From assembly GCA_951812335.1 (NCBI GenBank), contig OX638293.1, positions 452,501 through 516,500 of the forward strand: 64,000 nt of DNA. Reading direction: 5' to 3'. This document shows, piece by piece, positions 18,418 through 34,798 of the stretch. How positions within the stretch are numbered: position 1 is the stretch's first letter; every line of letters begins with the position of its first letter. Under the pieces are notes generated by a model, which worked only from the letters and a program-made list of their open reading frames with translations, did not search any database and was not told the origin of the DNA. This stretch comes from Rhodothermales bacterium. GTDB lineage: Bacteria > Bacteroidota > Rhodothermia > Rhodothermales > VXPQ01. Both the position numbers and the translations under genes were made by a program.

Positions 18418-18559
18418 GCGAACCGGCTCATGCGGCTCCGGCATAATGCCGATGGAATGGCGAGTCGCTATCCGCGATCTTTTATTTTTATTAAGACTTT
18501 GTCTATATTGTATCCGGTTCGTTCCATTCTCCAGAAAACGTTTCGCGACGCATAGCCAT

Positions 18560-19555
18560 ATGCCCCGTACATACGCATCCGCCGTTGCCATTCTGCTTGC
18601 CCTGTGCATTGGAGCGTGCGGCGAATCCGAGCCGCAAACGGTCGTGATCTACTCCGGGCGAAGCGAATCGCTTGCGGGCCCCATTCTTGAACGTTTCCAG
18701 GCGCAAACAGGCATCGCCGTAGAGGTCCGGTATGGAAACACGGCGCAACTGGCCGTAGCCCTTTCGGAAGAAGGCATACAAACCGAGGCGGATCTTTTCT
18801 GGGCCCAGGATGCCGGCGCGTTGGGCGCCGTACAGGAAGAAGGCCTCCCGGCGACGCTCCCCGATTCGTTGCTTGACAGAGTCCCGGAATATTTTCGAAA
18901 CGGTTCGGGAACGTGGGTGGCGACGAGCGGTCGAGCGCGCGTACTGGCGTACAGCCCCGAGCGCACCACGGCGGAAACACGTCCCGCAAGCATTTTCGAT
19001 CTGGCGCAGGAACCCTATGCCGGCCGTGTCGGATGGGCGCCGGCCAACGGTTCGTTCCAGGCGCACGTGACCGCGCTTCGCACGATAGCAGGCGACGAAG
19101 CCACACAAAATTGGCTCCGGACCATGCAGGAAAACGGGACGAAGAACTATTCGAACAATCGAACCATCGTGCAGGCCATTGCCGATGGAGAAATCGATCT
19201 GGGATTGCCAAACCACTATTATCTGTATCGCTTCCTGAGCGAGGATCCGGACTTTCCGGTGGAACAGCAGTTCTTTGCAGCAGGCGATGCAGGCAATCTG
19301 ATCAACGTGGCGGGGATCGCTATGCTGGCGTCTTCCACGCGGCAAACCGCCGCCCTGAAACTGATCGATTTCCTGCTTTCGGAGGAAGCCCAGCAATACT
19401 TCGTGCAGGAAACCTATGAATATGCCGTCATCGAAGGCATCGAGTCGCCTGCAGGGCTTCCCGTCGCAAACCAGGTGGTTCCCGATATCGATCTCGACGC
19501 ATTGAGCGATCTTGACGGCACGCTCGATATGCTGCGTGAGGGCGGACTCCTCTAA
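18560..19555 (+). CDS. ferric-iron ABC transporter, substrate-binding lipoprotein (FbpA/FutA type)
   Basis: The 331-residue protein begins with a lipoprotein signal (VAILLALCIGAC), so it is probably anchored at the periplasmic face. It opens with VVIYSGRSESLAGPILERF, a hallmark of Fe3+-binding periplasmic proteins, and carries the tyrosine cluster NHYYLYRF that coordinates iron in FbpA/FutA. Residues YSNNRTIVQAIADGEIDLGL also fit the family. The ATG at 18560 was chosen because the lipobox falls at the right distance; the longer in-frame start at 18446 would bury it. It is followed 43 bp later by the permease and then the ATPase gene, a complete importer. A Fur-family regulator is encoded at 2936. 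Confidence 0.9.
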   Translation: MPRTYASAVAILLALCIGACGESEPQTVVIYSGRSESLAGPILERFQAQTGIAVEVRYGNTAQLAVALSEEGIQTEADLFWAQDAGALGAVQEEGLPATLPDSLLDRVPEYFRNGSGTWVATSGRARVLAYSPERTTAETRPASIFDLAQEPYAGRVGWAPANGSFQAHVTALRTIAGDEATQNWLRTMQENGTKNYSNNRTIVQAIADGEIDLGLPNHYYLYRFLSEDPDFPVEQQFFAAGDAGNLINVAGIAMLASSTRQTAALKLIDFLLSEEAQQYFVQETYEYAVIEGIESPAGLPVANQVVPDIDLDALSDLDGTLDMLREGGLL

Positions 19556-19598
19556 CCATCTATAACCGAACGGGCTATTCGCTTCGGAGGCCGCTGGC

Positions 19599-21179
19599 GT
19601 GACCCGTGTCCTCGCCTATCTTCGCCGCCCGTGGTCCTGGTACGTCCTCGCGCCGATCCTGCTTGTCGGGGTCGGTGTGATCGTTCCTGTAATCTACCTG
19701 GTGCTGCGAGCCTTCGAGGCCGATGCCAACACGCTGGGCGATCTCGTCTTTCGAACAAGGAATCTGCACCTGTTCGTAAACACGTTGCTTCTGGCTGCGG
19801 GCGTCCTGGCGCTCGGTTCCGCTATTGCCTTCCCGATGGCATGGCTGACCACGCGCACACACACCCGTTTCCGCCGCGTTTTTACCCTGTTCGGCGTGCT
19901 GCCGCTGGCCATCCCGGGCTATATCATGGCGTACGTCCTGCTTGCTACGACAGGATCGTACGGTACGCTGGCCCGTCTCTTCGGAATCGAAATACCGCGT
20001 ATCGGCGGATATGCGGGCGCCGTGCTTGCGCTCACCCTTGCGACCTTCCCGTACCTGTTTCTAAATCTGCGCACGGCCCTGCTGGGCCTCGATCCCGCCC
20101 TCGAAGAGACAGCCCGATCGCTGGGAAGCGGTACACGACGTGTGCTATTGCGCGTGATCGCACCCCAACTCCGACCTGCGTTCTCGGCGGGCGCCCTGTT
20201 GGTGGGATTGCACGTACTGGGCGACTTCGGGGTCGTGTCCCTGATGCGTTTCGAAACGTTCAGTTACGCGCTGTACCTCCAGTATGCTGCCTCCTACGAC
20301 CGGGTATACGCCGCATGTCTGGCCCTGATGCTGCTGGCGCTCACCGGTATAGCGCTGTTGCTCGAAGCACGCCTGTTGCGCGGATTGCTCCTCCACCGGA
20401 CCGGTTCCGGACCCCCTCGTCGCATTCGGCGTACTTCGCTCGGAGCCTGGAAAGGGCCTGCTTATCTTTTCCTGCTTGGAACGGCCACACTATCCGTCGG
20501 CATTCCGGCGACCACGGTGGCCTACTGGATGTTCCGGACAGAACCCGGATCTTTGGCGGATCTTGCCCAGGCCCTGTGGGCCTCGCTATCGGCCAGCGCC
20601 CCGGCAGCCCTTTTGGCGACCGCGTTGGCGCTGCCCATTGCCTACCTTGGCGTGCGCTCCCCTTCCCGCCCGGTCCGAGCGCTGGAGCGCGTTGCCTGGT
20701 TCGGTTATGCAACGCCCCCACTCGCTTTTGCGCTGGCGCTCATTTTCTTCTCGCTCCGGTCGATACCGTGGGCCTACCAGACGCTTGGACTGCTCATTGT
20801 CGCCTATGGACTGCACTTCATGGCCGAGGCCGTAGGGCCCATCCGCAGTGCACTATACCAGGCGCCCCCCAGCATGGAAGAAGCGGCGCGCACGCTGGGC
20901 AGATCGCCGCTCCGAGCTTTCCTCGAAGCCACGTTTCCCCTCCTCCGAAGAGGGCTGCTCGTAGGCGTTGCGTTCGTCTTTCTGTCGGCCATGAAGGAAC
21001 TCCCGATCACTTTTTTGCTTTCACCGATCGGGTTTCAAACGCTTGCAGTAAATGTCTGGGGGCACACGAACGAGGCGCTGTTCGGCGCTGCGGCCCCGTA
21101 TGCGCTGACCATCATGCTCATTTCGTCCCTGTTCGTCGGTCTCCTGCTCATGCAGAGCGGGCGTCCCATGCGATCGTAA
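19599..21179 (+). CDS. ferric-iron ABC transporter permease (fused FbpB type)
   Basis: The 526-residue inner-membrane protein has about 12 membrane segments and two copies of the ABC permease EAA loop: EETARSLGSGTRRVLLRVIAP in the first half and EEAARTLGRSPLRAFLEATFP in the second, so it is a fused dimer as in FbpB/AfuB. It forms the iron channel for the neighbouring binding protein and ATPase. The start is GTG at 19599 with CGGAGG eight bases upstream. It is 61 bp before the ATPase gene. Confidence 0.92.
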   Translation: MTRVLAYLRRPWSWYVLAPILLVGVGVIVPVIYLVLRAFEADANTLGDLVFRTRNLHLFVNTLLLAAGVLALGSAIAFPMAWLTTRTHTRFRRVFTLFGVLPLAIPGYIMAYVLLATTGSYGTLARLFGIEIPRIGGYAGAVLALTLATFPYLFLNLRTALLGLDPALEETARSLGSGTRRVLLRVIAPQLRPAFSAGALLVGLHVLGDFGVVSLMRFETFSYALYLQYAASYDRVYAACLALMLLALTGIALLLEARLLRGLLLHRTGSGPPRRIRRTSLGAWKGPAYLFLLGTATLSVGIPATTVAYWMFRTEPGSLADLAQALWASLSASAPAALLATALALPIAYLGVRSPSRPVRALERVAWFGYATPPLAFALALIFFSLRSIPWAYQTLGLLIVAYGLHFMAEAVGPIRSALYQAPPSMEEAARTLGRSPLRAFLEATFPLLRRGLLVGVAFVFLSAMKELPITFLLSPIGFQTLAVNVWGHTNEALFGAAAPYALTIMLISSLFVGLLLMQSGRPMRS

Positions 21180-21240
21180 CCATCAGGCATTACAACCGGC
21201 CTCCAGCGCCAGCCGATCCGGAACACAGGATCATCCCGTC

Positions 21241-22287
21241 ATGCGCGAATTGCTTTCCGTCAACGATCTGACCAAGCGCCTCCCGGCAACCGGGCCGCCG
21301 GTCGTCAGTGCGTTGACATTCTCCGTCGGAGAGGGAGAAATATTCGCGCTGCTCGGCCCCAGCGGCTGCGGCAAAACAACGAGCCTGCGCCTCATCGCCG
21401 GCTTCGAACGCCCCAACGCGGGAGCCATCCGCATCGGTGGGCAATGCATGGCGGATGCAACGACCCATGTGCCTGCAGAGAAACGCGGCGTCGGGGTGGT
21501 GTTCCAGGATTTCGCCCTGTTTCCCCATCTGAATGCGGCGGAAAATGTGGGATTCGGACTCCTGTCTCTGTCTCGGGCGGAACGCAAGCGCCGCATCGAG
21601 GAAACGATCCGACTCGTTGGCCTAGCCGGATTCGAGGAACGCAAGCCCCACGAACTGTCCGGGGGGCAGCAGCAGCGCGTTGCGATCGCACGAACGCTTG
21701 CGCCGAAACCGGACCTGATTCTGCTGGACGAACCGTTCTCGAACCTGGACGCCCTCCTGCGGCAAACCACCCGGCAGGAAATCCGGGACGTGCTCAAGGA
21801 AGCCGGTACGACCACGGTCATGGTTACGCACGATCAGGAGGAGGCGCTCTCGTTTGCAGACCGGGTGGGCGTGATGCGAAACGGCAGAATCGAGCAGATC
21901 GGTACGCCGGAAGAGGTATATTACCGCCCCCGAACGCTCTTCGTCGCCCAGTTCCTGGGACGCACGAACCTGCTGCTTTCCGATGCGGACGGCATGGAAG
22001 CGGATACGCCGGTAGGGCGCGTGGCGCTGAACAGAAAGGCGCAGGGCCCGGTGCTGCTCTCGCTGCGGCCCGAACACCTGACGCTGAAAGAGGCTACCCC
22101 GGGCGGAACGTGCGCCGGATCTGTCCTGGCGAGGGCCTTCAAGGGGCATGACATTACGTTTACCGTCTTGCTGGACGGAAGCGAATATCTCGTGCATACC
22201 CACAACGGGATGCCCTTCCAGCCCGGAGATTCCGTGGAGCTGGAGCCCATCGAGCCGGCCGTGGTGCTGGAGACCAGTGCGGGGTGA
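21241..22287 (+). CDS. ferric-iron ABC transporter ATPase (FbpC type)
   Basis: The 348-residue ATPase has Walker A GPSGCGKTTSL, Q-loop VFQDFALFPHLN, signature LSGGQQQRVAIARTLAP, Walker B LILLDEPFSNLD and switch histidine in VMVTHDQEEAL. After the nucleotide domain is a regulatory OB-like TOBE domain (from about residue 235, with LLSLRPEHLTL), typical of FbpC/PotA/UgpC importers. Genetic order binding protein-permease-ATPase supports iron specificity. It energises import at the cytoplasmic face. Confidence 0.93.
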   Translation: MRELLSVNDLTKRLPATGPPVVSALTFSVGEGEIFALLGPSGCGKTTSLRLIAGFERPNAGAIRIGGQCMADATTHVPAEKRGVGVVFQDFALFPHLNAAENVGFGLLSLSRAERKRRIEETIRLVGLAGFEERKPHELSGGQQQRVAIARTLAPKPDLILLDEPFSNLDALLRQTTRQEIRDVLKEAGTTTVMVTHDQEEALSFADRVGVMRNGRIEQIGTPEEVYYRPRTLFVAQFLGRTNLLLSDADGMEADTPVGRVALNRKAQGPVLLSLRPEHLTLKEATPGGTCAGSVLARAFKGHDITFTVLLDGSEYLVHTHNGMPFQPGDSVELEPIEPAVVLETSAG

Positions 22288-22362: not shown

Positions 22363-22940
22363 ATGCCTGAATTCAAGATTAGGAACGCGGAACTTGCCGA
22401 GGCTGTATCGCAAAAACAGCATGCCTTTCCGAAGTATACGACCCAGATTATGAGGCTAACCAGAATGCACACGGCACGCGCCCCCCGGTTGTTGGCCAGA
22501 TAACCGAATTGTTTCAGGAGTTCGGAGGGAAAAGCTATGAGGAATGGGATGCCTGGTACAGAACCCAAAAACCCGAAGCGCCGAATGATGCGACGGATCG
22601 AATCTACGCGATGGTAGAGAAGTTGCGGGTAGCTGTGCAGGAGATCGACAAAAGCATGGTGCGTGAGTGGGTCGAGCATCTTGTGCTGGTAAAAACCTTT
22701 ATCGGTCTGTGTTTTCAGGAAGCTATCCTATCAAGAATCGCACAACGCAAAGGGGTCGATTACCGGATGGCAACGCCCGAAGAGGAATCGCAAGGGATCG
22801 ATGGCTTCATAGGCACGAGGGCGGTGTCCGTCAAACCTTCGACGTATGCGATCAAGGATATGCTACCTGAAGAGATACAGGGCGAATTGATACTTTATGA
22901 AAAGAAAAAGAGCGGGATTACTGTCACGTTCGATTTTTAA
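22363..22940 (+). pseudogene. MjaI-type restriction endonuclease, frameshifted
   Basis: Two frames read as one protein. The first, from ATG 22363, gives MPEFKIRNAELAEAVSQ, then QHAFPKYTTQI and stops at 22501. The second carries ANQNAHGTRPPVVGQITELF, then EEWDAWY, then VEHLVLVKTFIGLCFQEAIL, and ends with ATPEEESQGIDGFIG and ELILYEKKKSG. In the MjaI family (CTAG-specific type II nucleases) these blocks are continuous, so a small deletion near 22450-22458 has broken the gene; loss of one GCTG/GGCT repeat unit in GAGGCT(GGCT)AAC would explain it. The adjoining methyltransferase is intact. A sequencing or assembly error is the alternative. Confidence 0.7.
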
Positions 22941-22945
22941 CCCGG

Positions 22946-24106
22946 CTAAAGCTGTAACCGCACCTGGGTGTTTTGTTTTATCACAGGCGGCTTTGCCCCC
23001 ACGCCCACCAATCGATGTGCATTGTCCTTGATGGCGGAAATTTCTTCAGACCGGGCCTCTCCGCCATATTGCGCACGGACCGTCACGCCGTCGGTTTGAG
23101 GAGCGATCCCTATTCCTGTGATGTCATCCAGTAACAGCTCCTGCTCCTGGGCGGTCATTACCGGAAAACCGTAATGGCGGTTCGCGTACTTCGGCGGGCC
23201 GTGCTCTGCCGTGCGCGTACGAACCCAGTCTCGGTGCCGGGCCAACCGGCGTTGATTGTATTCGCGGGCAATACGCGGCGCAGCTTCCAGAAAAGTCCGC
23301 GCGACAGGCAGTAACGTATCGTCGATCTCAAGGCCTATCGAATTTCTTCCTGAAGCGAGCGCCGCAACCAATGTGGTCCCGGTGCCTGCAAATGGGTCCA
23401 GCACGACATCTCCCTTGATGGAAAACATGCAAATGAGCCGGTAGGCCAACTCGAGCGGAAATGCCCCGCTGCGCTCCCGAGCCGCCGTGTCGACAAGACG
23501 CTGATCGACCCCCTTTATGTCGAACCACATATCGGAAAACCAGACGTTACGCTCTTCCCAAAAGAAGGCGCTTTCCCGGCGGCGGAGCTTCTCGGCAGCG
23601 TGATCGAATTTTCTGCGCCTGCCCTTGCGCAGGACAAGAATGTATTCATGTTCGTAGGTTACATACGCCCCTACGGGCAGCATCCCGGATCCCATGAACT
23701 TGTTGGGAGCGTTTGTTTGCTTGCGCCAGATTATGTCGGGCAATGCTGCAAATCCGTGTCCAGGGAAACAGCCAAGGATTCGGGAGTGATTCGAGTACAG
23801 CTGAAAGTCCCCGTCAAGGGTTCGGGTCGCATCGCCAATATTGATGCAGGCAAGGCCACCCGGCTTCAGGACCCGGCTGCATTCCTCCCAGGCCGTATCG
23901 AGGAGTTGGTGCATGAGGTCGAAAGCAGCCCGGCCCTCCCCGCGAGCTAATCGGTCTCCAATACGGTCGTCCTGCGAAACGAATATATCGTCCCACATGG
24001 CGACCATCGGATAGGGTGGCGAGGTGACGATCAGGTCAACCGATGTATCCGGAACCTTGTCCATCGATCGGGCAGAACCGCATATCAGTCTCGAAGTCGT
24101 TTCCAT
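22946..24106 (-). CDS. DNA methyltransferase, beta-class, MjaI-like (predicted CTAG)
   Basis: The 386-residue enzyme has motif IV DLIVTSPPYPMV near residue 29 and motif I VLDPFAGTGTTLVAA near residue 250. This order defines the beta class and TSPPY suits N4-cytosine methylation, though N6-adenine is possible. Target-recognition sequence would lie between. It converges with the MjaI-type nuclease gene with 5 bp between stops, so together they make a type II R-M locus. The start at 24106 has GGGGAGGA upstream. CTAG specificity is inferred only from the nuclease family. Confidence 0.82.
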   Translation of the reverse strand: METTSRLICGSARSMDKVPDTSVDLIVTSPPYPMVAMWDDIFVSQDDRIGDRLARGEGRAAFDLMHQLLDTAWEECSRVLKPGGLACINIGDATRTLDGDFQLYSNHSRILGCFPGHGFAALPDIIWRKQTNAPNKFMGSGMLPVGAYVTYEHEYILVLRKGRRRKFDHAAEKLRRRESAFFWEERNVWFSDMWFDIKGVDQRLVDTAARERSGAFPLELAYRLICMFSIKGDVVLDPFAGTGTTLVAALASGRNSIGLEIDDTLLPVARTFLEAAPRIAREYNQRRLARHRDWVRTRTAEHGPPKYANRHYGFPVMTAQEQELLLDDITGIGIAPQTDGVTVRAQYGGEARSEEISAIKDNAHRLVGVGAKPPVIKQNTQVRLQL

Positions 24107-24209: not shown

Positions 24210-24241
24210 TGAAAATGCGCACCATCGCAGGGAATGACGTA
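24210..24241. repeat. 32-bp repeat, inverted copy at 27913-27944
   Basis: The sequence from TGAAAATGCGCACCATCG to GAATGACGTA is repeated in reverse complement at 27913-27944 with 30 of 32 bases the same. Both copies touch the left end of a GGATACTCTGA element, but in opposite orientation. They may belong to a second small repeat family or to a longer ancestral element. Confidence 0.6.
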
Positions 24242-24242
24242 C

Positions 24243-24496
24243 GGATACTCTGATTAAATCCGCGAAGTTTAGAGGCTGAAAGGGGTGCGCTGGCAAGAAA
24301 TGACGAAGCAATGTGGCAGGCCCCACATAATGAGGAATGACGTAGCCAGCGTGCCCCTCTCTGCCTCCCGAAGGGCGCTTCACGCCCGCGACGCCCCGAA
24401 TCCGGAGTGTTTCCCGCTATTTTCAACGGTGCAATTATAATATCTTTTACGCGCGAACGTGAAGCGCTGATCAAAGTGGATTTAGTCAGAGTATCC
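24243..24496. repeat. full MITE-like element, copy A (254 bp)
   Basis: The ends are terminal inverted repeats: GGATACTCTGATTAAATCC at the left and, reverse complemented, GGATACTCTGACTAAATCC at the right (18 of 19 identical). The flanks GTAC and GTAA may be a worn 4-bp duplication. No open reading frame of size is inside. Inner arms at about 24271-24296 and 24342-24367 (GAGGCTGAAAGGGG against its complement) form a second stem, so the RNA or ssDNA would fold into a nested hairpin. It aligns along nearly its full length with copy B at 49205. It sits between the methyltransferase gene and the TfoX relic. Confidence 0.8.
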
Positions 24497-24746: not shown

Positions 24747-26249
24747 ATGCCCACGGACTACGATCTCATTGTAATTGGAGGCGGCGCTGCCGGCCTCACT
24801 GCTTCGGGGGTGGGCGCCAGTTTCGGCGCCCGTACTCTCATGGTGGAGCAAGCCCGACTCGGCGGCGATTGCACCTGGTACGGCTGCGTGCCCAGCAAAG
24901 CGCTCCTGAGCGCAGCGCACGTCGCACACAGCGCGCGAAGAGCCGGGGAGTTCGGCATTCGGACAGGCGATGTGTCGGCGAACTTTCCGGAGGTCATTGC
25001 GGGTGTCCACGCGTTGCGCGAGCAAATTTACGACGATGCGGACGCCCCTGAGATTTACGAAAATATGGGGATCGACGTGAAGCAGGGAACAGCCCGATTC
25101 ACGGATTCCCGGACCATCGAGATTGTCTCGGATGAGACGACGGAGCGGTTCTCCGCGCGCAGGTTCGTCATCGCTACGGGGGGCAGAGCCTTCGTTCCGC
25201 CGATCAAGGGCCTTCGGGACGCGTCCTGCCTCACGAACGAAACCATCTTTGAGCTGACCGAACAGCCCCGGCGCCTTATCGTGCTCGGAGCCGGTCCCAT
25301 CGGTACCGAGATGGCGCAGGCATTCCGGCGCCTCGGATCGGAAGTGACCGTGATTGACCGGGAATCCCGCATTCTCTTTCGGGACGACGAGGAACTCGCG
25401 GGCATGCTGCAGGCCCGCCTCGAAGAAGAGGGCATCCGGTATGTGCTGAACGCGAACGTGTCCTCTGTGCAGGAGCGCGGAGGCGGGATCGAGGTGCTGA
25501 CAGGCGGTGAAACGTCAGGTGGCGGAACATCGGGCGAGCATCCCGAAAACCTTGTCCTCCATGGCGATGCGCTCCTCGTGGCCGCCGGACGGCAACCCAA
25601 CGTGGCGGCGCTCAACCTCGAAGCCGCAGGCGTGGCGTATGACGCGCGCGGCGTCAAGGTAGACGACCGGTGCAGGACGTCCCGCTCCGGGATATACGCC
25701 GTTGGGGACGTGACCGGGCGGTTCGCCTTTACGCACATGAGCGAGCATATGGCCAAGGTGGCGGCGATGAACGCTCTGCTGAAAATGCCCGCCAAAATAG
25801 ACGCTGCACACCTCCCCTGGACCACCTATGCCGATCCCGAACTGGCGCATGTGGGCGCCACGGAAGACGCGCTCCGCGCGGCGGGCAGGAAATACGAGAC
25901 GCTCCGGTTCCCGTATAACAAGATCGACCGAGCCATCACCGAGCGGGAGGAGTATGGCATGATCAAGGTGCACGCCCGTCCGCGCGACGGGAAAATATTC
26001 GGGGCGTCCATCCTGGGCGCCCGGGGCGGCGATCTGATCTGCGAATTAGCCCTTGCCATGCGGCGGGGCGTCTCCCTGAGGCATATCTCGGACGCCATTC
26101 ACCCCTACCCTTCCTATGGGCTGGGCGTGCGGCGTGCGGCGGACCAGTGGTACATCAAGCGGTACTCGCCGACGCTTATCCGCGTGCTGAAACGCCTGTT
26201 CGGCTATCGGGGCCGGGTGCTGGAGTACGGGCCGGACGAGATCGTTTAG
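24747..26249 (+). CDS. FAD-dependent pyridine nucleotide-disulfide oxidoreductase
   Basis: The 500-residue flavoprotein has the FAD Rossmann motif VIGGGAAGLTA at residues 9-19, the redox-active disulfide in GGDCTWYGCVPSK (Cys, four residues, Cys), a second Rossmann motif VLGAGPIGTEMAQ for NAD(P)H, the GIYAVGDVTGRFAF FAD segment, and a dimerisation domain with AIHPYPSYG near the end. This is the lipoamide dehydrogenase / mercuric reductase family. The second residue of the usual HPHPT motif is Tyr here and no 2-oxoacid dehydrogenase genes are near, so it is probably a mercuric-reductase-like enzyme of unknown substrate. No vicinal C-terminal cysteine pair is present, so mercury resistance is unlikely. 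Confidence 0.85.
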   Translation: MPTDYDLIVIGGGAAGLTASGVGASFGARTLMVEQARLGGDCTWYGCVPSKALLSAAHVAHSARRAGEFGIRTGDVSANFPEVIAGVHALREQIYDDADAPEIYENMGIDVKQGTARFTDSRTIEIVSDETTERFSARRFVIATGGRAFVPPIKGLRDASCLTNETIFELTEQPRRLIVLGAGPIGTEMAQAFRRLGSEVTVIDRESRILFRDDEELAGMLQARLEEEGIRYVLNANVSSVQERGGGIEVLTGGETSGGGTSGEHPENLVLHGDALLVAAGRQPNVAALNLEAAGVAYDARGVKVDDRCRTSRSGIYAVGDVTGRFAFTHMSEHMAKVAAMNALLKMPAKIDAAHLPWTTYADPELAHVGATEDALRAAGRKYETLRFPYNKIDRAITEREEYGMIKVHARPRDGKIFGASILGARGGDLICELALAMRRGVSLRHISDAIHPYPSYGLGVRRAADQWYIKRYSPTLIRVLKRLFGYRGRVLEYGPDEIV

Positions 26250-28276: not shown

Positions 28277-31200
28277 ATGAGTAAAAACGAGGATCCAGCG
28301 ACCCGTTTTACAAAGCATGACGATAACAACCATAACGATGCGTCTTTCGACGCGCTCCATGTCGGCCGTCGCATCGTAGCCCACCGCTTGCGCCGCACGT
28401 TCGCCTTTCTCCTTCGAACGGTGGCGGTCCCTCTTGTCGCGGTTGCTTCGCTGGCCGCATCCGGGACGGCCTACGCTCAGACCGACAGAGCGGCGCTGGT
28501 CGCGCTCTACAACGCGACCGACGGGGCCAATTGGGACACCAATACCAACTGGAACAGTAACCAGCCCCTCGGTGAATGGTACGGCATCGACACCGACGCC
28601 GCCGGACGGGTGAACTCTCTGTATCTCTACGAAAACAATCTTTCGGGTTCGATCCCGGCGGAACTGGGCAACTTGACCAATCTCGAAGAACTGGATCTCG
28701 GAAACAACAAACTGACGAATTCGATCCCGACGGAGCTGGGCGACTTGACCAATCTCGAAGAACTGCATCTCGAGGAAAACGACCTTTCGGGTTCGATTCC
28801 GGCGGAACTGGGCGACTTGACCAACCTAAAAGAACTGAATCTCGATAAAAACGACCTGACGGGGCCGATCCCGGCGGAGCTGGGCGACTTGACCAATCTC
28901 GAAGAACTGTATCTCGAGGAAAACGACCTTTCGGGTTCGATCCCGGCGGAGCTGGGCGACTTGACCAATCTCGAAGAACTGGATCTCAGAAACAACGAAC
29001 TGACGGGGGCGATCCCGGCGGAGTTTATCAACTTGAGCAATCTCACGAGACTGCAAGTCGACAACGATCTGTGCGTCTCGGGAGATACCGCATTCCAGCA
29101 ATGGCTTGACAGTCTCGATACCTTCACAGGCGACAAGAACAACATCTGCCCTCCTACGGCCAGCGCAGGCCCCGACCAGGAGGTGAACGAGGGGGTGGTG
29201 GTGACGCTATCCGGTTCGGGTACGGACAGTAATGGCGATGCGCTGACCAACCCGACCTACGACTGGGATTTTCCGACGGATATCGAGCTGTCGGATAGCA
29301 CGGCGGCGGAGCCGACGTTCACGGCGCCGAGTGATCTTGCTAGTGACTTGGTGCTGACGTTCGCGCTGAAGGTGAACGACGGGACGCAAGATTCTGCGCT
29401 GGACACGGTGCTGGTGACGGTCAAGGCGGCTCCTAAGGCCAATGCAGGCACCGACCAGGAGGTGAACGAGGGGGTGGTGGTGACGCTATCCGGTTCGGGT
29501 ACGGAAAGTGATGGCATTACTGCGCTGATCGACCCGACCTACGACTGGGATTTTCCGACGGATATCGAGCTGTCGGATAGCACGGCGGCGGAGCCGACGT
29601 TCACGGCGCCGAGTGATCTTGCTAGTGACTTGGTGCTGACGTTCGCGCTGAAGGTGAACGACGGGACGCAAGATTCTGCGCTGGACACGGTGCTGGTGAC
29701 GGTCAAGGCGGCTCCTAAGGCCAATGCAGGCACCGACCAGGAGGTGAACGAGGGGGTGGTGGTGACGCTATCCGGTTCGGGTACGGAAAGTGATGGCATT
29801 ACTGCGCTGATCGACCCGACCTACGACTGGGATTTTCCGACGGATATCGAGCTGTCGGATAGCACGGCGGCGGAGCCGACGTTCACGGCGCCGAGTGATC
29901 TTGCTAGTGACTCGGTGCTGACGTTCGCGCTGAAGGTGAACGACGGGACGCAAGACTCTGCGCTGGACACGGTGCTGGTGACGGTCAAGGCGGCTCCTAA
30001 GGCCAACGCAGGCACCGACCAGACGGTGGCGGAGGGGCAGGAGACGGTGACGCTATCCGGTTCGGGTACGGAAAGTGATGGCATTACTGCGCTGATCGAC
30101 CCGACTTACGACTGGGATTTTCCGACGGATATCGAGCTGTCGGATAGCACGGCGGCGGAGCCGACGTTCACGGCGCCGAGTGATCTTGCTAGTGACTCGG
30201 TGCTGACGTTCGCGCTGAAGGTGAACGACGGGACGCAAGACTCTGCGCTGGACACGGTGCTGGTGACGGTCAATGCGGCTCCTGTGGCCAACGCAGGCCC
30301 CGACACGACGGTGGCGGAGGGGCTCGATGTGACGCTAGACGGTTCGGGTAGTTCGGACCCGACGGGCGATCAGCTGACCTACACCTGGGTCTACGTCAAT
30401 GACCTCACGTGGCCGAGTGCCACGGAGCGGATGCCGACGTTCACGGCGCCGCCCATGATGGGGGAGAACGGGCCGCTTCCGAAGGACTCGGTGCTGACGT
30501 TCACGCTGACGGTGAACGACGGGACGCAAAACTCTGCGCCGGACACGGTGGTGGTGACGGTCAATGCGGCTCCTGTGGCCGACGCAGGCGACGACCAGCG
30601 GGTGGACGAGGAAGCGACAGGGCAGGTATTCGGTTCGGGTAGTACGGACCCGGGGGACGAAGAGCTGACCTACTACTGGATGGCTCCGGAGGGGATCGCG
30701 CTGTTGAATTTGCAGATGGAGAGCGCGGATTCCACGGTGCATAGTCCGATATTCATGGCGCCGGATGTTCTGTCGGACTCGGTGCTGACGTTCGAGCTGA
30801 CGGTGAAAGACAGCCTGCAAAGCTCTGCACCGGACACGGTGCTGGTGACGGTGAGGGGGGATAACGATGCGCCGACGGCCGCTGCGGGCCTCGACACGAC
30901 GGTGGCGGAGGGAGCAATGGTGACGCTAGACGGTTCGGGTAGTACGGACCCGGAGAAGAGGACGCTGACCTACGAATGGACGGCTCCGACGGAGATCGAG
31001 CTGTCGAGTACCACGGTGGCGGCGCCGACGTTCACGGCGCCGACTGGGCAGAACGGGTCGCTTCCGAAGGATTCGGTGCTGACGTTCGCGCTGACGGTGA
31101 ACGACGGGGTGAACGACTCCGCGATGGACACGGTGCTGGTGACGGTCAATGCGGCTCCTGTGGCTGCTGCAGGCCTCGACACGACGGTGGCGCAGGGGGC

Positions 31201-34200
31201 GACGGTGACGCTCTCCGGTTCGGGTACGGACTCGTCGCCGGGCGATCGGCTGACCTATGCCTGGGTCTACATCAATGACCCCACGGGCACGAGTCCGCTG
31301 TCGAGCACCACGATGGCGGCGCCGACGTTCGCGGCACCGGATGAGCTTGATAGTGACTCGGTGCTGACGTTCGAGCTGACGGTGAACGACGGGACGCAAG
31401 ACTCTGCGCCGGACACGGTCGTGGTGACGGTCAATGCGGCTCCTGTGGCCGACGCAGGCGACGACCAGGAGGTGGACGAGGGGGCGACGGTGACGCTCTC
31501 CGGTTCGGGTACGGACTCGACGACACCGAGCGATCAGCTGACCTACGCCTGGACGGCGCCGGCGGGTATCAATCTGTCGGATAACACGCAGGCGACGCAG
31601 GAGTTCACGGCGCCGACGGGGCTTGTGTCGACCGCGTTTCTCGAGTTCACGCTGAAGGTGAACGACGGGGCGCAAGACTCTGCGCCGGACACGGTGGTGG
31701 TGACGGTGTATCAGACCGACAGAGCGGCGCTGGTCGCGCTCTACAACGCGACCGACGGGGCCAATTGGGATGACAATACCAACTGGAACAGTAGCGCCGC
31801 CCTCGATACGTGGCGCGGCGTTCGCACCGACGACGCCGGACGGGTGGATTCTCTGAATCTCCGAGAAAACTCCCTGTCGGGTTCGATTCCGGCGGATCTG
31901 GGCGACTTGACCAACCTCAAATATCTGAATCTCCAAGAAAACGACCTGACGGGGCCGATCCCGGCGGATCTGGGCGACTTAACCAACCTCACGAGACTGT
32001 ACCTCCAGGAAAACTCCCTTTCGGGGCCGATCCCGGCGGAGCTGGGCGACTTGACCGAACTCAGGAGACTGTATCTCAGCGATAACAAAAGCGACGACAA
32101 CACGGGCCTGACGGGGGCGATCCCGGCGGATCTGGGCAACCTGACCAAACTCGAGAGACTGAATCTCGAAAACAACTCCCTGACGGGGTCGATCCCGGCG
32201 GAGCTAGGCAACCTGACCAAACTCGAGGGACTGACTCTCTACAACAACTCCCTGACGGGGGCGATCCCGGCGGATCTGGGCAACCTGACCAAACTCATAG
32301 GACTGGTTCTCTACAACAACTCCCTGACGGGGCCGATCCCGGCAGATCTGGGCAAACTGGGCTCCCTCCAAACACTGAATCTCGAAGAAAACTCCCTGAC
32401 GGGGCCGATCCCGGCAGATCTGGGCAAACTGGACTCCCTCCAAACACTGAATCTCCGAAAAAACTCCCTGACGGGTTCGATCCCGGCGGAGTTGGGCAAC
32501 CTGACCGAACTCAGAAGACTGTATCTCCGTGAAAACTCCCTGACGGGATCGGTCCCCGCGGCGTTTATCAACCTGGAAAATCTCATATTACTGTCTGTCG
32601 ACGACGAGCGGTGCGTGCCGGGGGATACCGAATTCCAGGAATGGCTTGACGATCTCATTAGCTTCAGAGGCGACAAGAACAACATCTGCATTGTTTCCGC
32701 GCTGGCGGTTCGAACCAGGATTCTCCGCGTGGGCGGAGGGCCCGTTACCGTTAACCTGGATACGGAGTATCCTTACGATTCGGGGTCAAGCTGGAGTATA
32801 CGTCACTACCGGGTGGGGGACGGCAACGCGGTGGACAATCCCGGCAATTCGTTTACCGTCGAGCAGTACGCTTGGGTCGACCTTACCGACAGTACGCTCA
32901 CCTTGAGTCCGCTTTCTTCGGCAGGCGCATTCGAGCTTGCTGCGGATCCGAATGCGAGTGTGGAGCGCGACGAGAAACTCATCCGTGTGGAAGTGATGTC
33001 CGCCAATGCGCCCGTGCTGATACGAGAGGATATCGCCGAGGGAGAAGAGTACAATGCGCAAGTCCAGTACCGTACGCGTCAAGTCGTCCTGACGCCAAGG
33101 GACGACGTGTCGAAAGAATTGGAGCTCTTCGATTACTTCTACGACCCGAACGATGTCTCCCTGACCTACGAAGCCAGCGCCGATAAAGCGGGCGCTGGCG
33201 ACGATGCGGTCGATATCGTAACGGCGACGGTATCCGGCGACAGGCTGACGATCGCGCTTACGGATCAGGCCCAAGAGGGCCAATCGACCAACGTTTGGGT
33301 GACTGCGACGGACGGCGCCGGCGAATATGCCCGGTTGCAAGTTATTGTGGCCGTATCCGGGGCAACCGGGCCGTATGTCGTAACGCCGCTTGCGGATTGG
33401 ACATTGCGGGAAGACGATGCCAAAGACACCACGATCGAGGGCCTGGGCGACGGATTCGCGGACGAAGATCTTGGCGATCGTTCGCTGGAATTGACGATCG
33501 ACATCGGCGACGATACGGCCACGAGAGTAGACGACGGCGACCGCTTTACGTGGGTTACGGAGTACATGACGGCGACAGTCGATCTGGCTGAGGAGACCTT
33601 GACCGTCCGTCCGCTTAGGAAGGGCGCGAACACCTTTACGGTGACTGCCACGGACAAGGGAGAGCCGACGTGTCGTGCCGGGTATGCGACAAACGACAAT
33701 CCTGTAACAGCAACCTCTACCTGTACGAAGGACGACGATTCGGGAGAGACCGCCAAAGTGACGTATCCGGACACCCAATTCGTATCGGATTCCTTTACGG
33801 TGACGATCGCGAGCGAGGATGCTCCGACCGTATCGAGGGCGATTCCTGACCAGGAACTGGATGCCGACGGCGACGCCGCAACGGTGGATCTGGCGGATTT
33901 GAACGGCGACGAAGACGGCGAGCCGGCTGCGTTCGGAGATCCTGCGATGAACGGACTCACGTATACGGCGAGCAGTGCGGACAGCACCGTGGTGGGGGTA
34001 GCTGTGGAGGGCTCCGTCATAACGCTTACGCCCGTGTGGCGTACGGACGAGGCATCTACCGACGTTACGGTGGTGGCCACGAACGACAACGAAGAAGCCA
34101 TCTCGCAACGCTTCGGCGTGACGGTCAACGCAGCCACGTTCCCGATCGTGCAGACCGTCATCGAGAAGATTACGCTGAATACGACCGATCTTGCGAGGGT

Positions 34201-34798
34201 TCTGGATTTGCGGAATCTGTCGGGAGGGGAGAAGGCCGATCCCGCTTTTCTGGATCCGAATGCGAGAGCGGGCGACGCGCTTCCAGGAGGGTTGTTCTAC
34301 GAGATGGATGTGTCGGCCGATCACATATCGCTGTCGAGCACCGCGACCCATGTGATCACCTCGGCCATGGAGTTGACGCTGGATCGATCCGGGGCCACGC
34401 TGACGATCTTGCCGTCCGGATACAACTCGGCGGAGGTCACGCTTACGGCGACCGATCGCGAGAGGAAGAAGGCTTCGCAGACCTTTACGGTCGCCGTGAT
34501 TTCGGGCGTCGGCACGGAAGAGCCGGAACTGCCTACGGAGGTTGAACTCTCGCAGAACTACCCGAACCCGTTCAACCCGCAGACGACCATCGACTACGCT
34601 TTGCCGCAGGCGGGCGACGTGAGCCTGATCGTATACGACATGCTGGGGCGCGAGGTGGACGTGCTCGTCGACGGTCCGCAGACGGCGGGTCGTCACACGG
34701 CGCGTTTCGATGCGAACGATTTGCCGAACGGCGTCTACGTGTATCGCCTGGCGGCTGGCGAGAAGACGATCGTGCGCACGATGGTTCTTCTCAAGTAA
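28277..34798 (+). CDS. giant LRR-PKD-LRR surface protein with T9SS sorting domain
   Basis: The 2173-residue protein has a long signal region ending near residue 67 (TAYAQ). Residues 68-293 are plant-type leucine-rich repeats (NNLSGSIPAELGNLTNL pattern) capped by CVSGDTAFQQWL...GDKNNIC. Nine PKD/Ig-like modules fill 294-1143. A second LRR block with the same opening (QTDRAALVALYNATDGANWD) and cap covers 1145-1472. Cadherin-like acidic modules run to about 2088, and a T9SS type A domain (2089-2173) begins ELSQNYPNPFNP and ends YRLAAGEKTIVRTMVLLK. It is secreted by the Por system and held at the cell surface, likely for adhesion or recognition. porX lies 11 kb downstream. Confidence 0.9.
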   Translation: MSKNEDPATRFTKHDDNNHNDASFDALHVGRRIVAHRLRRTFAFLLRTVAVPLVAVASLAASGTAYAQTDRAALVALYNATDGANWDTNTNWNSNQPLGEWYGIDTDAAGRVNSLYLYENNLSGSIPAELGNLTNLEELDLGNNKLTNSIPTELGDLTNLEELHLEENDLSGSIPAELGDLTNLKELNLDKNDLTGPIPAELGDLTNLEELYLEENDLSGSIPAELGDLTNLEELDLRNNELTGAIPAEFINLSNLTRLQVDNDLCVSGDTAFQQWLDSLDTFTGDKNNICPPTASAGPDQEVNEGVVVTLSGSGTDSNGDALTNPTYDWDFPTDIELSDSTAAEPTFTAPSDLASDLVLTFALKVNDGTQDSALDTVLVTVKAAPKANAGTDQEVNEGVVVTLSGSGTESDGITALIDPTYDWDFPTDIELSDSTAAEPTFTAPSDLASDLVLTFALKVNDGTQDSALDTVLVTVKAAPKANAGTDQEVNEGVVVTLSGSGTESDGITALIDPTYDWDFPTDIELSDSTAAEPTFTAPSDLASDSVLTFALKVNDGTQDSALDTVLVTVKAAPKANAGTDQTVAEGQETVTLSGSGTESDGITALIDPTYDWDFPTDIELSDSTAAEPTFTAPSDLASDSVLTFALKVNDGTQDSALDTVLVTVNAAPVANAGPDTTVAEGLDVTLDGSGSSDPTGDQLTYTWVYVNDLTWPSATERMPTFTAPPMMGENGPLPKDSVLTFTLTVNDGTQNSAPDTVVVTVNAAPVADAGDDQRVDEEATGQVFGSGSTDPGDEELTYYWMAPEGIALLNLQMESADSTVHSPIFMAPDVLSDSVLTFELTVKDSLQSSAPDTVLVTVRGDNDAPTAAAGLDTTVAEGAMVTLDGSGSTDPEKRTLTYEWTAPTEIELSSTTVAAPTFTAPTGQNGSLPKDSVLTFALTVNDGVNDSAMDTVLVTVNAAPVAAAGLDTTVAQGATVTLSGSGTDSSPGDRLTYAWVYINDPTGTSPLSSTTMAAPTFAAPDELDSDSVLTFELTVNDGTQDSAPDTVVVTVNAAPVADAGDDQEVDEGATVTLSGSGTDSTTPSDQLTYAWTAPAGINLSDNTQATQEFTAPTGLVSTAFLEFTLKVNDGAQDSAPDTVVVTVYQTDRAALVALYNATDGANWDDNTNWNSSAALDTWRGVRTDDAGRVDSLNLRENSLSGSIPADLGDLTNLKYLNLQENDLTGPIPADLGDLTNLTRLYLQENSLSGPIPAELGDLTELRRLYLSDNKSDDNTGLTGAIPADLGNLTKLERLNLENNSLTGSIPAELGNLTKLEGLTLYNNSLTGAIPADLGNLTKLIGLVLYNNSLTGPIPADLGKLGSLQTLNLEENSLTGPIPADLGKLDSLQTLNLRKNSLTGSIPAELGNLTELRRLYLRENSLTGSVPAAFINLENLILLSVDDERCVPGDTEFQEWLDDLISFRGDKNNICIVSALAVRTRILRVGGGPVTVNLDTEYPYDSGSSWSIRHYRVGDGNAVDNPGNSFTVEQYAWVDLTDSTLTLSPLSSAGAFELAADPNASVERDEKLIRVEVMSANAPVLIREDIAEGEEYNAQVQYRTRQVVLTPRDDVSKELELFDYFYDPNDVSLTYEASADKAGAGDDAVDIVTATVSGDRLTIALTDQAQEGQSTNVWVTATDGAGEYARLQVIVAVSGATGPYVVTPLADWTLREDDAKDTTIEGLGDGFADEDLGDRSLELTIDIGDDTATRVDDGDRFTWVTEYMTATVDLAEETLTVRPLRKGANTFTVTATDKGEPTCRAGYATNDNPVTATSTCTKDDDSGETAKVTYPDTQFVSDSFTVTIASEDAPTVSRAIPDQELDADGDAATVDLADLNGDEDGEPAAFGDPAMNGLTYTASSADSTVVGVAVEGSVITLTPVWRTDEASTDVTVVATNDNEEAISQRFGVTVNAATFPIVQTVIEKITLNTTDLARVLDLRNLSGGEKADPAFLDPNARAGDALPGGLFYEMDVSADHISLSSTATHVITSAMELTLDRSGATLTILPSGYNSAEVTLTATDRERKKASQTFTVAVISGVGTEEPELPTEVELSQNYPNPFNPQTTIDYALPQAGDVSLIVYDMLGREVDVLVDGPQTAGRHTARFDANDLPNGVYVYRLAAGEKTIVRTMVLLK
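29156..31709 (+). repeat. nine tandem PKD-domain units, three nearly identical
   Basis: Units begin near 29156, 29435, 29717, 29999, 30284, 30575, 30875, 31160 and 31445, so spacing is 279-300 bp. Units 2, 3 and most of 4 (29435, 29717, 29999) are almost base-for-base copies, including rare synonymous choices. This implies recent tandem duplication or gene conversion. Later units have diverged. Copy number is likely variable between strains and prone to misassembly. Confidence 0.85.

Follow-up and report, generated by a model that had tools for sequence, protein, structure and literature searches.

M.MthZI is an experimentally characterised CTAG methyltransferase that forms m4C, according to PMC5867850, and the plasmid gene mthZIM that encodes it is named in a title cited in PMC6471742. 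Nuclease-first decay of restriction-modification (R-M) systems is discussed for Haloarchaea in the latter paper, and for Mycoplasma agalactiae PMC9465063 reports nuclease pseudogenes beside methyltransferases.

The window analysed here (64,000 nucleotides, to which all coordinates refer) belongs to a Rhodothermales genome of 2.69 Mb assembled as a single contig (G000). Its locus combines the same nuclease and methyltransferase families, in the same convergent layout, as the CTAG-directed MthZI system of plasmid pFZ1 from Methanothermobacter thermautotrophicus, the nucleases being about 47% identical; pFZ1 carries its intact nuclease on a plasmid, whereas that of the window is frameshifted and chromosomal (Table 1). 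The window nuclease also fits the MjaI profile (Pfam RE_MjaI, PF09568) almost end to end, the downstream frame (22449-22940) matching profile positions 7-164 of 164 with an E value of 2.1e-57, but unlike MjaI of Methanocaldococcus jannaschii its reading frame is broken. It was the only PF09568 match in the G000 genome in a search that was confined to this nuclease family and also found M. jannaschii. Among solved structures no sequence match to the window nuclease was obtained. The preliminary description had reported an MjaI-like type II R-M locus with an intact methyltransferase and a frameshifted nuclease, and all three statements held: the nuclease belongs to PF09568 and its neighbour is related to M.MthZI, the methyltransferase frame is continuous over 386 amino acids at the coordinates given there, and the frame changes close to the position indicated.

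Table 1 Features of the R-M locus in the window
Feature	Position	Strand	Remarks
5' fragment of MjaI-family nuclease gene	22363..22503	+	Homology to intact relatives over 29 codons; thereafter frameshifted up to the TAA at 22501-22503
Site of the frame-breaking net 4-base deletion	22450..22457	+	Placed, to within a few bases, by aligning the uninterrupted nuclease genes of G005 and G001
Rest of nuclease gene, shifted frame	22455..22940	+	Stop 22938-22940; first listed in-frame start is TTG 22509
Intact beta-class N4/N6 DNA methyltransferase, 386 aa	22946..24106	-	TSPPY before DPFAGTGTT; M.MthZI homologue

The two genes lie tail to tail, and 5 bases separate their stop codons. The methyltransferase matched the Pfam N6/N4 DNA methyltransferase family (3.8e-39) and, as best PADLOC model, a type II methyltransferase (2.2e-144). 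It retains the beta-class motif order and is 48.6% identical over 327 positions to the pFZ1 methyltransferase, the gene of which we take to be mthZIM. Its specificity is presumably CTAG, with m4C as the product.

Within the genus, the pair is present with an uninterrupted nuclease in G001 and G005, while three other congeners contain no close copy of either gene. The methyltransferase is hence not one that is kept across nuclease-less relatives. G000, G001 and G005 share the neighbours on the methyltransferase side of the locus. Homology between the genomes starts 8-28 bases before the nuclease ATG, so that the gene immediately preceding the nuclease differs among all three. In G005 the pair is flanked directly by a tRNA nucleotidyltransferase gene on one side and by the gene at 24747 (window numbering) on the other, and in G001 a ruvA-like gene directly precedes the nuclease. 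The tRNA nucleotidyltransferase gene of the window is separated from the nuclease by an iron-type ABC transporter block (18446-22287; binding protein, permease and ATPase); no counterpart of this block was present among the matches listed in the five congeners, and it was apparently either gained by G000 or lost by the congeners. On the other side, a repeat of ~255 bp with inverted ends (TACGGATACTCTGA...) has inserted at 24241-24496, some 135 bases upstream of where the methyltransferase begins. Dozens of copies of it occur in G000 and in congeners, but neither G005 nor G001 has one at the corresponding position; it resembles a miniature transposable element of the non-coding type. Over the ends of both genes (22880-23085), ~200 bases are identical to G005 with clear divergence on both sides, which may reflect recombination between lineages.

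The first ORF of the nuclease gene encodes 46 amino acids plus stop; it starts as MPEFKIRNAELAEAVSQKQHAFPKYTTQI before leaving the frame, while the frame from 22455 carries ANQNAHGTRPPVVGQ... up to the end of the gene. This short ORF gave no Pfam match when searched alone. Its first 29 codons aligned base by base with the starts of the intact nuclease genes in G005 and G001, and it is therefore part of the same gene as the downstream frame; the possibility raised in the preliminary description, that it might come from a different gene, was thereby answered. No uninterrupted nuclease frame is present, only the two fragments in different frames, and the gene is short by net 4 bases compared with both G005 and G001. 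When more distant relatives were aligned, the NLANQN stretch was read through without a shift. Since the frame is intact both in these relatives and in G005 and G001, the deletion is derived in G000. Substitutions adjoin the deletion, which lies outside any homopolymer. A GGCT repeat had been proposed as a natural slippage site, and this proposal had to be given up: between 22300 and 22960 no tandem repeat was detected even at the lowest score, neither a GGCT repeat nor a slippage tract exists, GGCT occurs within the locus at chance level, and the relatives reveal the net 4-base deletion instead. In the GIDG...SVKP motif of the downstream fragment, the Asp and the Lys, which are invariant (D148 and K159 in the G005 protein), are preserved, and the changes in the G000 nuclease hit conserved columns as well, e.g. 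M48 to I.

Changes specific to the G000 branch were counted with G001 as outgroup, the nuclease count referring to the downstream part of the gene. Here 10 amino-acid-changing and 4 silent substitutions were found, a proportion that is unlikely by the standard of the two intact genes, G005 against G001 (12 of 43 changing; P = 0.0009), and that neutral change would allow (P = 0.41). On the same branch, the methyltransferase acquired 13 amino-acid-changing and 27 silent substitutions, and the two genes differed from each other (Fisher P = 0.026). When the G000 and G005 branches were compared for the nuclease, with small numbers of changes, no significant difference emerged (Fisher P = 0.24). Altogether, on small counts, the nuclease looks near-neutral and the methyltransferase constrained on the G000 branch.

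These data bear on several accounts of the broken frame. A sequencing or assembly error, behind which an intact nuclease and an ordinary working R-M pair would be hidden, draws some support from the assembly of G000, one contig with no stated read type, and from there being only one frame break in the gene. However, net 4 bases in a place with neither homopolymer nor tandem repeat are atypical compared with a one-base error, substitutions adjoin the deletion, and the changes on the G000 branch look neutral and affect conserved columns as well; we regard such an error as quite improbable. In particular, the neutral-looking nuclease set against the constrained methyltransferase favours true decay of the nuclease as the better account.

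The two fragments overlap and jointly span the whole protein, as would be expected if the cell switched or recoded the frame by phase variation or programmed frameshifting to make the nuclease, yet neither a tandem repeat nor a slippery tract is available for this, and the intact relatives use a single frame, so that a conserved recoding site is absent; this account is scarcely credible. Very doubtful, too, is a shortened working nuclease translated from TTG 22509 by re-initiation after the TAA of the first fragment. The start codon lies 5 bases past that stop and the downstream frame still codes for the invariant Asp and Lys, but such a product would lack the N-terminal block N31, L32, N34, T40, R41, P42, V45, G46 and Q47, which is invariant in the close subfamily, and the neutral-looking substitutions in the downstream fragment argue against function.

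We therefore consider it highly probable that this is an R-M pair in which the nuclease was broken by a 4-base deletion and is decaying, with the methyltransferase intact and constrained. On this view, a type II pair of the MjaI/MthZI kind keeps a single chromosomal location in the genus; in G000 the deletion, about 29 codons into the gene, would have inactivated the nuclease, in which amino-acid changes would since have accumulated at close to the neutral rate. The methyltransferase that faces it, still intact and constrained, should continue to methylate its site, putatively as m4C in CTAG, whereas cutting has presumably been lost. Loss of the nuclease first would be the harmless order, because a cell that lost the methyltransferase before the nuclease would leave its chromosome exposed. 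Homology to M.MthZI, the shared layout and the motif order point to a likely present state in which restriction is gone and CTAG methylation continues. The lone methyltransferase suggested in the preliminary description is accordingly graded as probable on the strength of the broken nuclease and the intact methyltransferase frame: G000 probably carries a solitary methyltransferase with predicted activity. Judged from the nuclease remnant adjoining it and from the congeners with an intact pair, its solitary status would be recent. It is unlikely that the methyltransferase is kept for a regulatory role of its own at the very few remaining CTAG sites and has not merely escaped decay so far.

CTAG frequency in G000 was determined in 400 kb sampled evenly, with the expectation derived from trinucleotides. 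CTAG occurred 37 times against 262 expected, the lowest ratio among all tetranucleotides (0.14). The preliminary description had linked CTAG restriction to CTAG avoidance; within the genus this link failed, and avoidance as a footprint of this R-M locus was rejected, since the observed/expected ratios of congeners with the intact pair (G005 0.12, G001 0.21) are matched or undercut by those of congeners that have no close copy (G003 0.09, G002 0.05). Vsr repair was likewise discarded as the cause of the depletion: Vsr is encoded in G002, G003, G004 and G005, not in G000 and G001, which leaves the latter two unexplained. In a wider sample (40-80 kb each), ratios of 0.00, 0.04, 0.02, 0.08 and 0.45 were obtained for genomes with an MjaI-family nuclease and of 0.18, 0.09, 0.35, 0.42 and 0.67 for those that have none, a mixed picture across order and phylum in which a weak link between system and CTAG at larger distance is conceivable. 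In published work most prokaryotes have few CTAG sites, whether or not they carry such systems, and avoidance is allowed for as the trace of a lost system; G002 and G003 might conceivably once have had one. CTAG rarity in the genus is thus no indicator of this R-M system. As for the distribution of the sites, 7 of the 14 in the window lie within a long repeat-bearing gene (28277-34798; sites spanning 29340-32204), where four of them are spaced 282-285 bases apart, CTAG being otherwise rare in the genome.

The family was surveyed in 80 relatives from named genomes, the methyltransferase being sought within the fetched stretch. A related methyltransferase was located near the nuclease in 75 of them, in convergent orientation in 17, as a methyltransferase-first tandem in 49 and as a nuclease-first tandem in 9. 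Two relatives, L139 and L179, have a single stop within an otherwise conserved nuclease and a nearby methyltransferase (54% and 32% identical, respectively). Loss of the MjaI-family nuclease may therefore recur, unless these stops are assembly errors. The closest relative outside the genus comes from an uncultured member of the Latescibacteria, another phylum (L106); both proteins are 73% identical in a different gene order, a likeness that suggests transfer between phyla. Records of Poribacteria and Latescibacteria among the matches allow no more than a guess at a marine or sponge habitat. Nuclease relatives were also found on 64 viral contigs (L185-L248), 42 of which carry a related methyltransferase nearby, mostly as a nuclease-first tandem.

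The locus is a decayed member of a known R-M system, and loss of the nuclease with retention of the methyltransferase is already well known. It offers a clean, recent case in which the nuclease was the first part of a restriction system to be lost and in which sister loci with both genes intact can be compared; otherwise it is ordinary. The HVO_0794 family of Haloarchaea, as portrayed in PMC5867850 and PMC6471742, is likewise a CTAG-methyltransferase-type protein that has no working partner nuclease; that family, however, is kept across a class in which the nuclease is missing, whereas in the window the nuclease remnant still adjoins the methyltransferase and congeners retain the intact pair.
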